Assembly (NCBI GenBank): GCA_035536915.1
Contig: DATLNE010000020.1
Location: 79,044 to 143,043 of the forward strand
Direction: 5' to 3'
Length of the DNA: 64,000 nucleotides
Source of the DNA: Acidimicrobiales bacterium
Lineage (GTDB): Bacteria > Actinomycetota > Acidimicrobiia > Acidimicrobiales > JAHWLA01
Numbering within the stretch: position 1 is the stretch's first letter; every line of letters starts with the position of its first letter. The translations under genes and the position numbers were made by a program. Below, piece by piece: positions 16,766 through 60,794 of this stretch. A model generated the notes under the pieces. It worked only from the letters and a program-made list of their open reading frames with translations, was not told the DNA's origin and ran no database searches.

Positions 16766-19515
<2,750 letters not shown>

Positions 19516-19540
<25 letters not shown>

Positions 19541-20460
19541 GCGTGGTCGGCGCATCGCAGGCCGGCCTCCTCGCAAGATCCGACATCCACGCCAGTGCCA
19601 TGGTCCCGAAGCGACGGGTCGCCAACTGCACCTGGCAACGGCTGCAGCGGGGCGTCTACCTGACCGGCTCGGCGCCGCCCACCTGGTGGCAGCAGCTCCG
19701 GGGCGCCACCCTGGCGGCGGGACCGAGAGCGGTGGCGTCGCACCGGGCGGCGGCCGTGCTGTGGGGCCTCGACGGCTTCCGTTCGGCCCCGCTCGAGATA
19801 CTGGTGCCGATCACATGTGGGCCGGTGCCGACAGGCGTCATCGTCCACCGCACGCGGCGCCTCGACCCGCGCGACGTGACCGTGCACAACGGCCAACCCG
19901 TCACCGTCGTGGAGCGCACCATCCTCGACCTGTGCCGCGACCGGTCGTGGCGGGTGGTCGAGGTTGCCCTTGAGAGCGCCATCCGCAAAGGGCTCACCAC
20001 GCATTCGAAGTTGCGCCGGTTCCTGGAGGAGGGCAGCCGCCAGGGGCGCAAGGGCGTGCGGAAGCTGCGCACGCTGCTCGTCCAGCGCGAGGGCGAGCGC
20101 GCCGCCGGCAGTGCGGCGGAGGTGGCGTTCCTCCGCCTCGTGCGCCTCGCCGGCCTGCCGAGGCCGAAGCGCCAACACCGCATCGCGCTCGCCCACGGGG
20201 AGGTGGCGACGGTCGACTTCGCCTGGCCCGAGGCCCGCTTCGCCGTGGAGGTCGACGGTTTCGACGCCCACGGTGGACGCGAGGCTTTTTACCGGGATCG
20301 CGCCCGCGACAACGCCATCCGCGACCGGGGCTGGGGCATGCGCCGCGTCACGCTCGACGACATCCGCCGCCGGCCGGAAACGATCGTCACCATGCTCAAC
20401 ACCGAACTGCGAAGAACCCCGTCCACCCCGCGAAGTGTGCGGATGTCGGGATCGTTGTGA
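19516..20460 (+). CDS. AbiEi-like N-terminus with DUF559 nuclease-like C-terminus
   Basis: A 314-residue protein. The N-terminal part (SQAGLLARSDI, WQRLQRGVYLTGSAPP, GPRAVASHRAAAVLWGLDG) matches the winged helix of AbiEi-type antitoxin/regulator proteins. The C-terminal third (TVDFAWPEARFAVEVDG, FYRDRARDNAIRDRGWGMRRVTLDDI) matches DUF559, a Vsr/PD-(D/E)XK-like nuclease fold with the D...EVD acidic signature. I chose ATG 19516 over 19507, which lies inside the -10. No cognate toxin lies beside it. It overlaps the odd 3' end of aceE and is framed by repeats, consistent with insertion. Common as an orphan gene in Actinomycetota; function unproven. Confidence 0.7.
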
Positions 20461-47697: not shown

Positions 47698-49092
47698 ATG
47701 CTTCGCAGCCTCGAACTCACGAACTTCAAGACGTTTCGAAACGCCAGCGTGAAGGTTTCACCACTCACTCTCGTGCTCGGATCAAACGGCGTGGGGAAGT
47801 CGAACCTATTCGACGCGTTTCGATTTCTGAAATCTGTTGGCGATGGCCAGTCAATCCGGGATGCAATCGAAGGTCATGCCACGTCGAGTCCTACGGCGCC
47901 TACTGTCCCGGGGATTCGGGGAGGTGCGAGCGGCATCCCGTCGTTTGGATCAGACTCATCAGAGTTCGAGCTGAAGGTGTCGATCACCGCTGATGGCGAC
48001 GACATCGCTTACGCCGTTCGAGTCGATGCTTCGACCTATCGGGTCGTAGCGGAGGAACTACGGTCGCGTCGACACCCGGGCTCATACGTTTTTAGTACTC
48101 ATCCCGATACGGGACCTCTGGAGCAGAGAATTGACTCACCTGCCATCGTGGCACGCTTCCACAAGGAGACGCCAGGGCTGAACCCGCGGCGGGAGTTTTC
48201 TCCTTATGAGTTCATACTCTCCCAATTCCGTCAGCGAAGGGCCGAGAGCCGTGTCAATGAGGCGGTCGCCGAAGCAGTAAGGGCAGAACTTGCCTCCATC
48301 CGGCCACTCGAGTTACGGCCTGAAGTGTTACGGCAGTATTCGCCGCTAGGTCGTTCCGAACTTGGAGAACATGGCGAGAACTTTGCCGCAGTTGCGTGGC
48401 AACTTCTTCGCGAAGTTGAAACTGGACATGCGCGCCTCGTCTATTTGAAACGGCGCCGGGAGCAACGGGAACGTCAGCTAGCCCTTTCACTCACCAACGA
48501 CCGGGCGCAGCGTGCTGATGAAAATTGGGAACCGGAGTTATATAACGAGGAAGAACTGGCAGAGCCGGGTGACCGGCTCAATGCGATAAAGGCGTGGCTC
48601 TCGGAATTGACCCCACGCCGGATTGAGGACATTACCGTAGAACAAGCCCCGACGGGCGAAGTGATCTTCGCTCTAACCGAGGAGGGTCACGAGAAACCGA
48701 TTACCGCTCGCTCCCTCTCCGATGGGACGCTTCGGTTCGCAGCACTTGTATTTGCGGCCCTTGGCGTCCGGGGACGACAGACGCTAGTAATTGAAGAGAT
48801 CGAGAATGGAATCAACCCTGCGCGCTTGGCAATACTCATTAAGATGCTCGAACAGACCGTAGACAGTTTCGATAATTTGCAAGTGATCGCCTCGACGCAT
48901 TCGCCAGGGCTGCTTGATTTCGCCTCTAAATCGACCACTGCCGCTTCAATAATTATTGGGTGGGACGCTCAGAATAAGTGCTCGTATCCACTACGCCTCT
49001 CGGACATACCGCGTCTATCTGAAGCTGTTAAAGAAACCACGTTGGGTGCGCTTCAGGCGGAAGGATGGTTGCAATTTGCCGCAAATAGGTGA
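47698..49092 (+). CDS. AAA/ABC-type ATPase of an OLD/AbiL-like pair
   Basis: A 464-residue SMC/OLD-like ATPase (AAA_21/AAA_15 type). Walker A GSNGVGKSN is at 28-36, the signature LSDGT at 340-344, Walker B LVIEE at 363-367 and the switch His at 401 in IASTHSPG. No nuclease domain is fused. It is followed 6 bases later by a TOPRIM-like gene. ATPase plus TOPRIM pairs of this layout (AbiL, PARIS, OLD-family systems) act against phages in other bacteria. Codons are clearly richer in A/T than the surrounding genes, a sign of transfer. Function here is inferred from this pattern. Confidence 0.82.
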   Translation: MLRSLELTNFKTFRNASVKVSPLTLVLGSNGVGKSNLFDAFRFLKSVGDGQSIRDAIEGHATSSPTAPTVPGIRGGASGIPSFGSDSSEFELKVSITADGDDIAYAVRVDASTYRVVAEELRSRRHPGSYVFSTHPDTGPLEQRIDSPAIVARFHKETPGLNPRREFSPYEFILSQFRQRRAESRVNEAVAEAVRAELASIRPLELRPEVLRQYSPLGRSELGEHGENFAAVAWQLLREVETGHARLVYLKRRREQRERQLALSLTNDRAQRADENWEPELYNEEELAEPGDRLNAIKAWLSELTPRRIEDITVEQAPTGEVIFALTEEGHEKPITARSLSDGTLRFAALVFAALGVRGRQTLVIEEIENGINPARLAILIKMLEQTVDSFDNLQVIASTHSPGLLDFASKSTTAASIIIGWDAQNKCSYPLRLSDIPRLSEAVKETTLGALQAEGWLQFAANR

Positions 49093-49098
49093 ACGGCG

Positions 49099-49680
49099 TT
49101 GAGTCTGCGAGTGGCAGCAGTATGCGAAGACCATACGCATGATCAGTATATTGTGCGGCCCGTACTTCAGCGCCTTCTCTCTACAGCGGGAAAGCCGCAT
49201 GCGACGGTAACAGTGGTGATGGACCCTCGCCTGAAAGGTATAGACGACCTAAAGCGACGTGCCTGCGAGGTACTGAAGCGCTACGGTGCCGTGGCGGACA
49301 TTGTTGTTTTCGTTGTCGATGCGGACGGACTCGACGGGACTGGAGGTATGGGGAACCGTCAAGAGTTACTCCAACGTCTCGTTCAGAAATGCGAGAAATA
49401 TTCCGAGCGCGCTTTCGTGGTCGCTGCTATTCAAGAAGTCGAAGTGTGGGCCCTCTGGGGCTCTCGAGCTCAACTCGGCGTTGAGTGGAAAGACGTTCGA
49501 GCTGAGCGTCACCCCAAGGAGAGGTTTTTCGAGCCACTCGTCACCTCCGCCGATCAGCGCACGCCTGGCCGAGGCCGCGTACGCCTGATTGAGAAGTCGC
49601 TGACTAATTGGGGGTCACTCGCTGGCGGATGCCCCGAATTGGGTGAATTCGCGTCTGCCGTTCAATCGCTGCTGCAGTAG
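49099..49680 (+). CDS. TOPRIM/DUF4276-like partner of the ATPase
   Basis: A 193-residue protein with TOPRIM-like features: Glu10 in AAVCEDHTHD, a D-x-D pair D74/D76 in VVFVVDADGLD and E113/E115 in IQEVEVWAL, the pattern of DUF4276/RloB-like nucleases. TTG at 49099 is the first start after the ATPase stop in this frame, with AGGTGA upstream. Like the ATPase gene it uses more A/T codons than its surroundings. It probably provides the effector nuclease of the pair. It ends 5 bases before the convergent sufC. Confidence 0.7.
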   Translation: MSLRVAAVCEDHTHDQYIVRPVLQRLLSTAGKPHATVTVVMDPRLKGIDDLKRRACEVLKRYGAVADIVVFVVDADGLDGTGGMGNRQELLQRLVQKCEKYSERAFVVAAIQEVEVWALWGSRAQLGVEWKDVRAERHPKERFFEPLVTSADQRTPGRGRVRLIEKSLTNWGSLAGGCPELGEFASAVQSLLQ

Positions 49681-57247: not shown

Positions 57248-57269
57248 TGTCACACCCCCCGCGTACGCT
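57248..57269 (+). promoter_or_regulatory. TGTCACACCCC-type promoter of the methyltransferase gene
   Basis: TGTCACACCCC (57248-57258), five bases, TACGCT (57264-57269), seven bases, then the GTG at 57277. Geometry is the same, base for base, as at 19487-19516. Confidence 0.5.
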
Positions 57270-57276
57270 GATCCTC

Positions 57277-58689
57277 GTGACCGGGCGACGCCGAGCGACT
57301 GCCACCTCCGCCTTCGGGGTGAGCAAGCGGGAGAACCACGATGCCAGCGGGTTCTACGCGCGCTTCTCGCCGCCCGTGGTCTCCAAAGCCGAGATCGTCA
57401 GCCCGCCCGACCCCGCCTCGCTCGACCGCATCGTCTGCGGAGACGCCCGCTCCATGGACGACGTGGCCGACGGCTCGGTGGCCTTGGTCGTCACTTCCCC
57501 GCCGTATTTCGCAGGCAAGGAGTACGAGACCGCCCTCGGCTCCGGTTCGGTGCCTGCCTCCTACCTCGACTACCTCAAGATGCTCGAGGACGTCTTCGCC
57601 GAGTGCGTCCGCAAGCTGGAGTCAGGGGGACGCATCGCCGTCAACGTGGCCAACCTGGGACGCAAGCCCTACCGGTCGCTGGCCGCCGACGTCACCACCA
57701 TCCTGCAGGACCGCCTGGGCCTGCTGCTGCGAGGGGAAGTGGTGTGGCAGAAGGGCCGGGGGGCTACCGGCTCGTGTGCCTGGGGCTCGTTCCAGAACGC
57801 CTCCAACCCGGTGCTGCGCGACGTGACCGAACGGGTGGTCATCGCCGGCAAGCACCGCTTCAACCGGGCCATCTCCCGGGCGGAACGGGAGACGCAGGGC
57901 CTGCCGTCGGTGGTCACCATGAGCAAGGACGAGTTCATGGAAGCCACGCTCGACGTGTGGGAGCTGGCGCCTGAGAGTGCGGCCCGGGTCAACCACCCCG
58001 CGCCGTTCCCGGTGGAGCTGCCGTCGCGGCTGATCCACCTCTACACCTTCGAAAGCGACCTGGTGCTCGACCCGTTCATGGGCTCGGGCACCACCGCGGT
58101 GGCGGCCGTGCAGGCGGGCCGCCACTTCGTGGGCTACGACACCGACCCCGACTACGTGGCGCGGGCCGAGGCACGGGTGGCCGAGGCGCGGGCGGAAGTG
58201 GCGCCGGCGAGCGCCCGGGTGCCGGTGACCGTTCAGGCGGGTGCCGACGAGGGCTTCCAACAGCAGGCGATCCGCGAGGGGCGGGCGGCCCGTGAGGTGG
58301 CGGAGACCCTGCTGGAGGAGTGCGGGTTCACCGCCATCCGCAAGAACGTGAAGCTCGGCGGCGGGGCCGAGCTGAGCCTGGCCGCGGTCGCCGCCGACGG
58401 CTCGCGGTGGTACTTCGACGTGTGCGGTGCGTACAGCAGTTCGCGGCCCGGGCTGCGGCGCACCGAGACCGTCTACCGAGCGCTGGGGCGGCTGGCCGTG
58501 CTGCGCGAGCGCGACATCCCCGCCGACCGCATCGTGCTGCTCACCACCGACCTCCCGGCCAAGGGCTCGGTGGGCGAGCAGGCGCTGCGGGCCACGGAAG
58601 GCACGTTGTACCGGGCCGCCTTCGAGATGTTGTCGTCGGAATGCCACGAGCGGCTCTGCGACTTCGCTCGCGGCAGCACACCTCGGTAG
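57277..58689 (+). CDS. DNA methyltransferase (N4-cytosine/N6-adenine, beta class) with C-terminal extension
   Basis: A 470-residue amino-methyltransferase. Catalytic motif IV TSPPYF comes first and the AdoMet motif DPFMGSGTTAVAAVQAG later, the beta-class order typical of N4-cytosine or N6-adenine enzymes. Residues about 330-470 form an extra domain (VAETLLEECGFTAI, ELSLAAVAADGSRWYFDVCG) resembling a degenerate PD-(D/E)XK fold. GTG at 57277 follows a TACGCT -10 by 7 bases. It begins a three-gene locus with a possible nuclease and a C5 methyltransferase. Recognition sequence unknown. Confidence 0.88.
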   Translation: MTGRRRATATSAFGVSKRENHDASGFYARFSPPVVSKAEIVSPPDPASLDRIVCGDARSMDDVADGSVALVVTSPPYFAGKEYETALGSGSVPASYLDYLKMLEDVFAECVRKLESGGRIAVNVANLGRKPYRSLAADVTTILQDRLGLLLRGEVVWQKGRGATGSCAWGSFQNASNPVLRDVTERVVIAGKHRFNRAISRAERETQGLPSVVTMSKDEFMEATLDVWELAPESAARVNHPAPFPVELPSRLIHLYTFESDLVLDPFMGSGTTAVAAVQAGRHFVGYDTDPDYVARAEARVAEARAEVAPASARVPVTVQAGADEGFQQQAIREGRAAREVAETLLEECGFTAIRKNVKLGGGAELSLAAVAADGSRWYFDVCGAYSSSRPGLRRTETVYRALGRLAVLRERDIPADRIVLLTTDLPAKGSVGEQALRATEGTLYRAAFEMLSSECHERLCDFARGSTPR

Positions 58690-58695
58690 CAACCT

Positions 58696-59709
58696 GTGCC
58701 CGCGGCCCGCACGGAGGTGACCGAGCTGGTGACCGGGCTGGGCATGCTCGGGCGCTTCGACGACCCCGTCGCGGCGGTACAAGCCCGGCCGCCTGAGGTC
58801 GTCAACGTCGCCGACGACGTGTGGGAACGGCTGGCGGAGTCGGTCGGGGCCGCCGCCCACCGCCAGCACGTCTACGCGGCGTGGGCCAACGGCGGCGCCT
58901 TCCTGCGCGCCTCCGACGGCCTCCGGGGGCGACCACCGATACGCGTCGAGTGGAAGGGCAACCAGTTGGCGCCGGGCGACGAGGTGGTGCCCGCCGACCT
59001 GCGGGTCGACCACGTCTACCTCGTCAGTTGCAAGTACCTCTCCGACATCCTCCACAACGTCTCGCCCGCCCGCCTGTTCACCGACCTGTTGCGCGGCGGC
59101 CCCCGCTCCAACCGGGGCGACTGGTACGCCGAGGTGGCGCCCGACGCCTACCAGGAGGTCTACGCCGCCGTTCGGGCCGCCATGCCGGGCGACCTCGGGC
59201 TGCCGCCGTTCGTGGCCGACCTCACGCCTGCCCACCGGGTGACGCTGAAAGCGGTGCTGCCCGAGCGGCAGTGGCCGGTCGACGCCCTGCCCACAGCCAA
59301 GGCATGGTCGTGCGAGGTGGCTCGGGCCAGCGCCGCTCGATGGCGGGCCGCCCTCGGCAGCAAAGCCGAACAGGAGGCGCTGCTGTGGCGCCTGTTGCGC
59401 ATCGGATCGGCCCCGTACTTCGTGCTGGGCACGTCGAGCCAGGGCACGCTTCGGCTCCGCATCGCCACGCCGTGGGACTGGCGCCAGGCCTACGACCTCA
59501 AGCGCTTCGACGTCTCCGGCGACGAGGCGGGCCAACCCGTCGTGCGCTGGGAGGCGTCGGTGCGCGACCGGGCCACCGACGAGGTGCTGGCGGTGGCGGG
59601 CCACGTCGAGATCCGCTGGAGCCACGGCAAGTTCGGCAATCCCCCCGAAGCCAAGGTGTACCTCGACACCCCGCACCACCGGGTACCGGGATACATCACC
59701 GTGGCATGA
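58696..59709 (+). CDS. Unknown protein between two methyltransferases, candidate restriction nuclease
   Basis: A 337-residue protein I cannot assign to a family. Features compatible with a PD-(D/E)XK nuclease core are RVEWKGNQL (E85, K87), then D101 and D105 in PADLRVDHVYLV and the strand end SCK at 111-113. The rest is mixed alpha/beta (RIGSAPYFVLGTSSQGTLRL, VAGHVEIRWSHGKFG). GTG at 58696 lies 6 bases after the first methyltransferase; its stop overlaps the second (ATGA). Position between two modification enzymes is the main reason to suspect restriction. Confidence 0.55.
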   Translation: MPAARTEVTELVTGLGMLGRFDDPVAAVQARPPEVVNVADDVWERLAESVGAAAHRQHVYAAWANGGAFLRASDGLRGRPPIRVEWKGNQLAPGDEVVPADLRVDHVYLVSCKYLSDILHNVSPARLFTDLLRGGPRSNRGDWYAEVAPDAYQEVYAAVRAAMPGDLGLPPFVADLTPAHRVTLKAVLPERQWPVDALPTAKAWSCEVARASAARWRAALGSKAEQEALLWRLLRIGSAPYFVLGTSSQGTLRLRIATPWDWRQAYDLKRFDVSGDEAGQPVVRWEASVRDRATDEVLAVAGHVEIRWSHGKFGNPPEAKVYLDTPHHRVPGYITVA

Positions 59710-60794
59710 CCGGCCCGTACGCTTCGACCATGCAGCCGCCGCGCATGATCGACCTCTTCGCCGGGTGCGGAGGCATGACCGCGGGGTTCGTGGCGGCGGG
59801 CTTCGAACCGGTGCTGGCGGTCGAGTGGGAGTTGCCCGCGGCTGCCACCTACGCCGCCAACTACGGCGAGGAGCACGTCTTCTGGGGCGACATCGCCGAC
59901 CTCCCGGAAGATCGAATCCCCGAGGCCGACGTGGTCATCGGCGGCCCGCCGTGCCAGGGTTTTTCCAACCTGGGCAGCCGCAACCCCCGCGACCCCCGCA
60001 ACCGGCTGTGGCGGGAGTACGTGCGGGTGGTGAGCCGGGCCCGTCCTGCCGTGTTCGTCATCGAGAACGTGGCCCGCTTCCACTCCTCGCACGAGTTCTC
60101 CCTGCTGGAGGCCGAGGTGGCCGGCGGGGCATTGCGCGACTACCGCCTGGCCCATGCCGTGGTGAACGCCGCCGACTACGGCGTGCCCCAACGGCGGCTG
60201 CGCACGATCGTCGTCGGCAGCCGCATCGGCCAACCGTCGCTGCCGCCGGTCACCCACCGGCCTCGTGAGTGGGTCCCCGTGCGCAAGGCGTTGCGCCGGG
60301 TGCCGGCCGAGCCATTGGGTGCCGACCTGCCTGCTAGCCGTGACCTGTTCTTCGGCCGCCTGGTGCCGGGCTCGTTCAAATCGGCGGAGATCCACGTGGG
60401 GCGGCGGCCCACGCCCACATCGGCCGAGCGCTATCGGGCCATCCCCGAAGGCGGCAACCGTTTCGACCTGGCCCGGGAGCGTCCCGACCTGCTGCCGCCG
60501 TGCTGGCGCAACAAGCCGACGGGCACCACCGACGTCATGGGCAGGCTGTGGTGGGACGATCCGTCGGTCACCATCCGCACCGAGTTCTTCAAGCCCGAGA
60601 AGGGCCGCTACCTCCACCCCGCCGAGCACCGCCCCATCACCCACCTGGAAGCGGCGCGGCTGCAGACCTTCCCCGATGACTACCTGTGGTGCGGCAGCAA
60701 GGTGGCCATCGCCCGCCAGATCGGCAACGCCGTGCCCAGCCTGCTGGCCCGGCGCATCGCCGAGACGGTGGCCGAGCTCCTCGTCAAGGGTTGA
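59706..60794 (+). CDS. DNA (cytosine-5-)-methyltransferase
   Basis: A 362-residue C5-methyltransferase. Motif I DLFAGCGGMTAGFVAAGF, catalytic motif IV GGPPCQGFSNLGSRNPRDP, motif VI FVIENVARF, VIII QRRLRTIVVG and X IGNAVPSLLARRIAE are complete. ATG at 59706 overlaps the previous stop; ATG at 59730, 6 bases after a TACGCT -10, could be an internal leaderless start. It would protect one strand or site for the R-M locus. Convergent overlap of 11 bases with the VOC gene. Confidence 0.92.
   Translation: MTGPYASTMQPPRMIDLFAGCGGMTAGFVAAGFEPVLAVEWELPAAATYAANYGEEHVFWGDIADLPEDRIPEADVVIGGPPCQGFSNLGSRNPRDPRNRLWREYVRVVSRARPAVFVIENVARFHSSHEFSLLEAEVAGGALRDYRLAHAVVNAADYGVPQRRLRTIVVGSRIGQPSLPPVTHRPREWVPVRKALRRVPAEPLGADLPASRDLFFGRLVPGSFKSAEIHVGRRPTPTSAERYRAIPEGGNRFDLARERPDLLPPCWRNKPTGTTDVMGRLWWDDPSVTIRTEFFKPEKGRYLHPAEHRPITHLEAARLQTFPDDYLWCGSKVAIARQIGNAVPSLLARRIAETVAELLVKG

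Follow-up and report, generated by a model that had tools for sequence, protein, structure and literature searches.

The 64,000-nucleotide stretch of an Acidimicrobiales genome considered here (contig DATLNE010000020.1, positions 79,044 to 143,043; the window) carries at 57277-60794 three consecutive genes on the forward strand, which code for an amino-methyltransferase (M1), a middle protein of 337 residues (MID), and a C5-cytosine methyltransferase (M5). These genes are not a single conserved three-gene unit. Their components are ordinary and their arrangement is uncommon: a core methyltransferase, one domain of which has a nuclease fold but is apparently dead, is joined by an optional partner, probably its restriction enzyme, and by a separate C5-methyltransferase. 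On balance, the evidence leans towards M1 being a core methyltransferase which would form a type II-like restriction-modification (R-M) system wherever the optional MID accompanies it, M5 being an added gene. An earlier note on this DNA had proposed a three-gene R-M-like locus; what remains plausible of that proposal is the M1/MID pair, whereas M5 lies outside the conserved unit, which the note had overlooked together with the separate C-terminal domain of M1. Its description of an amino-methyltransferase and a C5-methyltransferase flanking a protein of no recognised family agrees with the open reading frames (ORFs), whose positions and common strand were confirmed, and with Pfam and NCBIfam. 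The source genome (3.2 Mb, 54 contigs) contains MID once. In the sister species (L038), M1, MID, and M5 occur in the same order and are flanked likewise by sufB and a glyoxalase gene, and the ratios of nonsynonymous to synonymous substitution rates between window and sister species (0.29 for M1, 0.26 for MID, and 0.25 for M5) indicate purifying selection on all three. As 24 more full-length MID relatives were retrieved besides the window copy, as the order is conserved in the sister species, and as these ratios are low, the three genes are real and not chance ORFs.

M1 (57277-58689, plus strand, 470 amino acids, GTG start) begins with a β-class amino-methyltransferase domain (57277-58206) which matches Pfam N6_N4_Mtase (E 8.8e-37) and PADLOC MTase_II PDLC03350 (285 bits) and shows the motif order of the β class, TSPPY (residues 73-77, ~57493-57507) preceding DPFMGSGTT (residues 265-273, ~58069-58095). 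Residues S74, P75, P76, Y77, D265, P266, G269, and G271 are invariant in the M1 alignment, and structural neighbours include the putative modification methylase 2zie and M.PvuII (1boo, E 7.5e-10). The SPPY sequence in motif IV, which we take to mark N4-cytosine enzymes, suggests that M1 probably methylates cytosine at N4. An M1 orthologue (E <= 1e-50) is encoded in 55 of 59 related genomes, as a single copy except in G431, where two matches are both partial, and in 49 of 396 genomes sampled evenly across the phylum. In relatives lacking MID, the neighbours of M1 are unrelated and often housekeeping genes (names assigned by eye), and M1 is mostly distant from any nuclease gene, other nuclease candidates being situated near some M1 genes. 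Since M1 is near-universal and mostly without a nuclease neighbour, while MID is present in only 19 of the same 59 relatives, M1 is distributed as an orphan core methyltransferase would be. A family of ~195 residues with the motif D...(V)ELKxK / DLKEK adjoins M1 in five MID-less loci, upstream in L117 and L120 and beside M1 on the opposite strand in L097, L121, and L125; in three of the five it stands in a row with a MerR-like gene and another M1C-like protein (M1C is described below), as judged by eye. Possibly these proteins are alternative nuclease partners of M1.

The C-terminal 145 residues of M1 (residues 326-470; 58252-58686), termed M1C, form a separate domain without Pfam match, present in 59 of 62 M1 proteins examined. 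Comparison of its predicted structure gave VIA Z scores of 10.3 for Cdn1, 9.6 for XisH, 9.1 for 2inb, 8.7 for Card1, and 8.2 for BsoBI, with 13 chains at Z 8 or above; as XisH, Card1/Cdn1, and BsoBI are presumably PD-(D/E)XK proteins, M1C is predicted to adopt the PD-(D/E)XK fold. The lysine of (D/E)xK, however, is absent from all 59 M1C domains; the strand concerned mostly reads FDV[S/A/T]G, and the window M1 has a C at the variable place (WYFDVCG, ~58408-58428). With the fold predicted and the lysine missing throughout, M1 seems to hold a conserved, apparently inactivated nuclease-fold domain. M1C thus shares its predicted fold with XisH, Card1/Cdn1, and BsoBI, yet differs in lacking the catalytic lysine and in being fused to a methyltransferase. 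At L110:4204-4623 (minus strand), right after M1 and the small gene described below, lies a candidate active nuclease, a relative of M1C which stands alone and whose ExK is intact (FEYKG).

MID (58696-59709, plus strand, GTG start), the variable partner of M1 and a putative restriction endonuclease, is present at full length in 18 of the 59 relatives and as a remnant in one more (G413), and all 19 MID-bearing relatives fall among the 55 that possess M1. In the phylum sample, full-length MID was detected in eight of the 396 genomes, each of which also encodes M1, so that no MID-bearing genome lacks M1. Of the 25 full-length MID genes placed, the window copy included, 22 immediately follow M1, one of them (L030) behind an interrupted M1. 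The earlier note had named absence of the middle protein from homologous loci as speaking against its three-gene system, and this is largely what is found, as most M1 loci lack MID. MID also decays where M1 is retained: in G413 an in-frame deletion fuses residues 1-81 to residues 315-337, and in G157 two MID fragments lie ~2.4 kb apart. The loci L053 (remnant) and L054 (fragments) were left out of the MID alignment and of the full-length count. Broken MID genes in two genomes, together with solitary M1 genes in most, might also point to a remnant cluster, assembled by gene gain without any functional coupling, in which MID is a slowly decaying leftover. We regard this explanation as improbable, because the substitution-rate ratio of MID resembles those of M1 and M5 and because the adjacency of M1 and MID recurs across families.

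A small gene of ~100 residues without Pfam match accompanies M1 in part of these loci. It was detected in 11 of 26 genomes searched (the 25 with MID or MID pieces plus that of L013, also MID-bearing), being situated between M1 and MID or its remnant in ten and behind an unlinked M1 in G415. As clustering also reveals the small gene behind M1 at eight loci from genomes that lack MID, it belongs to M1. A search of the window genome did not find it, whereas the sister species possesses it.

In an alignment of 25 MID sequences, residues E85, D101, K113, E305, R307, W308, E318, and K320 are invariant, the last five being close to the C terminus. Three of them lie in the conserved stretch EW(K)G..PADLRVDHVYLVSCKY (58948-59034), in which the earlier note had seen possible PD-(D/E)XK residues. 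D101 and K113 are indeed conserved, but SCK occurs at K113 where (D/E)xK would be expected, no fold match was listed for MID, and the PD-(D/E)XK fold that can be recognised in the locus is the one predicted for the lysine-less M1C. More informative seems to be the C-terminal motif GHVEIRWSHGKF...PEAKVYLD (59602-59670): the segment WSHGKF...PEAK aligns to the end of the REase_II profile PDLC03456 of PADLOC in 21 of the 25 proteins, with a best E of 0.0013, the window MID itself giving one sub-threshold REase_II match (E 0.073). On the viral contig L055 (IMGVR_UViG_3300000553_003694, 88-1680), a MID-like C-terminal fragment which shares this motif and matches PDLC03456 at E 0.0012 ends 15 bases before a C5-methyltransferase gene; a second C5-methyltransferase gene follows at a distance of 320 bases, on the opposite strand. 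By tblastn MID found no match among plasmids or phages, genome_contigs gave a single locus, PHROGs, Pfam, and PDB contained no sequence match of note, two degenerate DNA patterns written for WSHGKF recovered only the known viral contig, and PDLC03456 itself was found in none of 198 genomes nor in 14 controls. Based on the C-terminal REase_II motif, the adjacency to M1, the patchy distribution, and the decay, the likeliest reading, which we consider fairly probable, is that MID serves as the optional restriction enzyme of M1. A kinship of MID with NaeI was also considered and rejected, as MID has no PF09126 or other Pfam match and as hhalign gave a probability of 0 against two NaeI proteins of the relatives.

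Several observations weigh against the R-M reading of M1 and MID. MID has no Pfam or NCBIfam match at E <= 1, and the REase_II match is weak, its best E coming from one protein and only ~22 residues being covered. Structure prediction for 58696-59709, which the earlier note had suggested, yielded a confident model (predicted local distance difference test 91.5, predicted template modelling score 0.88) but no clear PDB match, the best Foldseek E being 0.06, the highest Z in a second look 3.6, and no solved fold of a restriction enzyme being among those listed, which proves neither a new fold nor the absence of PD-(D/E)XK. In BFVD, two phage proteins with uninformative names match MID (E 4e-6 and 4e-5, template modelling scores 0.43 and 0.32 by query length). 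At full length, MID lies away from M1 at three loci (L031, L037, and L045); the genomes concerned are G284, G415, and G135, which has a second copy of MID and whose M1 is interrupted before M1C. On a quick M1 tree, from which L030, L111, L048, and L049 were left out, the presence of MID requires 12 changes, as compared to a shuffled mean of 17, only one of them forced by starred branches, and the distances of M1 and MID correlate weakly (r 0.27, with 78 of 2000 permutations as high). Furthermore, none of 50 palindromes is clearly avoided in MID genomes once G+C content is allowed for (largest |t| 2.5), in a comparison which comprised 63 M1 genomes with very unequal amounts of sequence and in which L231, one of 20 M1-less stretches, was masked. 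CTAG, which is markedly depleted in most of the genomes compared, had appeared to be such a site, with a pooled observed-to-expected ratio of 0.27 in MID genomes and 0.54 in other M1 genomes; this difference vanished after G+C correction, as the under-representation tracks G+C and not MID.

Some of these same observations would suit a non-nuclease accessory of M1, that is, a DNA-binding or regulatory partner which steers methylation or reads the mark. A confident model without nuclease match, the occurrence of solitary MID genes, and the fact that M1 in MID carriers looks less like a gene for defence than like one for housekeeping are all in line with such a role. It is less easily reconciled with a protein that is patchy and decaying and carries a REase_II-like motif, nor with the finding that in L055 this motif also stands directly upstream of an unrelated C5-methyltransferase, and we consider an accessory possible but doubtful. 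To suppose, beyond a restriction function, that MID founds a family of restriction effectors with a fold new among restriction enzymes, attached to an indispensable core methyltransferase, seems more tentative still and rather unlikely. On that reading, the R-M system would have arisen in reverse order, an ancient domesticated mark being there first and optional nucleases, be it MID or, elsewhere, further small nuclease-like genes next to M1, being taken up and dropped.

M5 (59706-60794, plus strand, 362 amino acids) matches Pfam C-5 DNA_methylase with E 3.8e-59. Its ATG at 59706 overlaps the stop codon of MID, an alternative ATG being present at 59730, and this overlap of 4 bases suggests translational coupling, so that M5 is probably translated together with MID. 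Beyond the window, M5 adjoins MID at just one of 24 full-length MID loci, that of the sister species (80% identity); M5 was therefore rejected as an obligatory part of the locus and constitutes a genus-level addition. Relatives of M5 (E <= 1e-40) occur in seven of the 59 genomes, window and sister species included, and five loci from four of the five other genomes were fetched, G400 with the weakest relative (36% identity) being left out. The fetched relatives are ~51-61% identical to M5; in four of the five loci a Vsr gene (PF03852) or a Vsr remnant is close by, and in two NaeI (PF09126) lies beside the methyltransferase. NaeI is encoded in just two of the 59 relatives, both times next to an M5 relative, and a search of the window genome for a NaeI gene found none. 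M5 and a NaeI-linked enzyme are closely alike in their target-recognition regions (RRPT..S.ERYR.IP.GGNRFDL...CW.NKPTGTTDVMGR). Because its kin adjoin NaeI and share this region, M5 is probably a C5-methyltransferase of the GCCGGC type, GCCGGC being what we take to be the NaeI site, which was recruited behind MID. M5 thus belongs with the C5-methyltransferases linked to NaeI R-M systems or Vsr, but differs from them in that its genome lacks NaeI and that it follows MID instead.

From the two chemistries, the earlier note had deduced an asymmetric or methyl-dependent site, and the association of M5 with other partners does not uphold this. If MID cut a single asymmetric site with one strand methylated by M1 and the other by M5, the retention of the three-gene order in both species of the genus would be readily understood; however, M5 is missing beside MID in nearly all other full-length loci, its relatives accompany NaeI and Vsr, and most of the related genomes possess M1 but neither MID nor M5. 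Such a three-gene R-M system appears very improbable.

In the arrangement that we favour, of a core M1 with an optional MID, M1 would be a lineage-wide and largely orphan methyltransferase which lays a core epigenetic mark, probably N4-methylcytosine, and the lysine-less M1C would probably aid the binding of DNA or of a partner. In about one third of the related genomes MID would be attached downstream, and the pair would act as a type II-like R-M system in which M1 shields the sites of the host while MID cleaves unmodified DNA entering the cell, both at a common target. MID would have been gained and lost repeatedly while M1 persists, and M5, an unrelated C5-methyltransferase of the NaeI-linked kind added behind MID in this genus, may methylate a site of its own or provide additional protection. 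As in PvuII, which we take to be a type II R-M system, genes for a methyltransferase and a putative endonuclease adjoin on the same strand, and M1 aligns to M.PvuII; in contrast to PvuII-type systems, M1 outlives MID in most relatives, MID lacks a family match, and the M1C domain is extra. Like the orphan methyltransferases CcrM, Dam, CamA, and cHG U of Halobacteria, M1 is near-universal in a high-rank lineage and mostly without a restriction partner, but it differs from them by its fused lysine-less PD-(D/E)XK domain and by an adjoining candidate nuclease in about one third of the relatives. The Halobacteria m4C enzyme family for CTAG, cHG U, is present in 174 of 217 genomes (PMC6471742).

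If this is true, a high-G+C group that is large and for the most part uncultured, probably Acidimicrobiia and their kin, would share one core methylation mark undescribed in the literature searched, which had subscription journals outside its scope and contained no paper on this M1 methyltransferase. In a metaepigenome study of 2019, a single incomplete Acidimicrobiia bin is listed with no motif and no methyltransferase (PMC6329791). The combination of domain fusion and plug-in partner would make the passage from orphan to restriction testable in sister genomes with and without MID.

The earlier note had also seen a promoter common to M1 and an AbiEi/DUF559-like gene, and indeed TGTCACACC occurs both at 57248, before M1, and at 19487, where the DUF559/AbiEi-like ORF (19507-20460) follows after 20 bases. 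The promoter-like element before M1, whose function is presumed, reads TGTCACACC-N7-TACGCT (57248-57269, plus strand). From the end of its -10-like box TACGCT to the GTG of M1 there are 7 bases, and in several cases such a box lies 6-8 bases before the start codon; due to this proximity the M1 transcript may be leaderless. In the strict form TGTC[AG]CACC-N7-TANNNT, the element is present ahead of both the window M1 and its counterpart in the sister species. It matched 14 times in 2.18 Mb, ten times upstream of M1, as compared to 0 for each of 30 shuffled cores, and was present in 31 of 20000 random windows. Ten of 19 MID-adjoining M1 genes are preceded by it but none of 39 other M1 genes (Fisher p 1.8e-6); from the 19, two loci with a short upstream stretch had been dropped and L030 and L053 excluded earlier. 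Kinship weakens this difference, only one pair on starred branches being phylogenetically independent, and it was therefore rejected as an independent association. The spacing of the element is reminiscent of the RecA-NDp/PafBC promoter, whose letters we assume here and which the accessible part of PMC6789036 does not confirm.

The DUF559/AbiEi-like gene, so labelled in the earlier note, codes for 317 residues and occupies, with its upstream TGTCACACCCC, the same element as that of M1, positions 19487-20460 of the window. In the same genome, the element, as TGTCACAC-N8-TANNNT, is also found at L170:7683, L173:14868 (minus), and L177:16835 (minus), preceding transketolase-like, FtsH-like, and RecB-like genes, respectively (names by eye), and these sites possibly represent a small regulon with leaderless transcripts. 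Elsewhere in the window, at 47698-49680, a gene for an AAA/SMC-like ATPase of 464 amino acids is followed by a gene of 193 residues, and by eye the two look like a two-gene defence pair.

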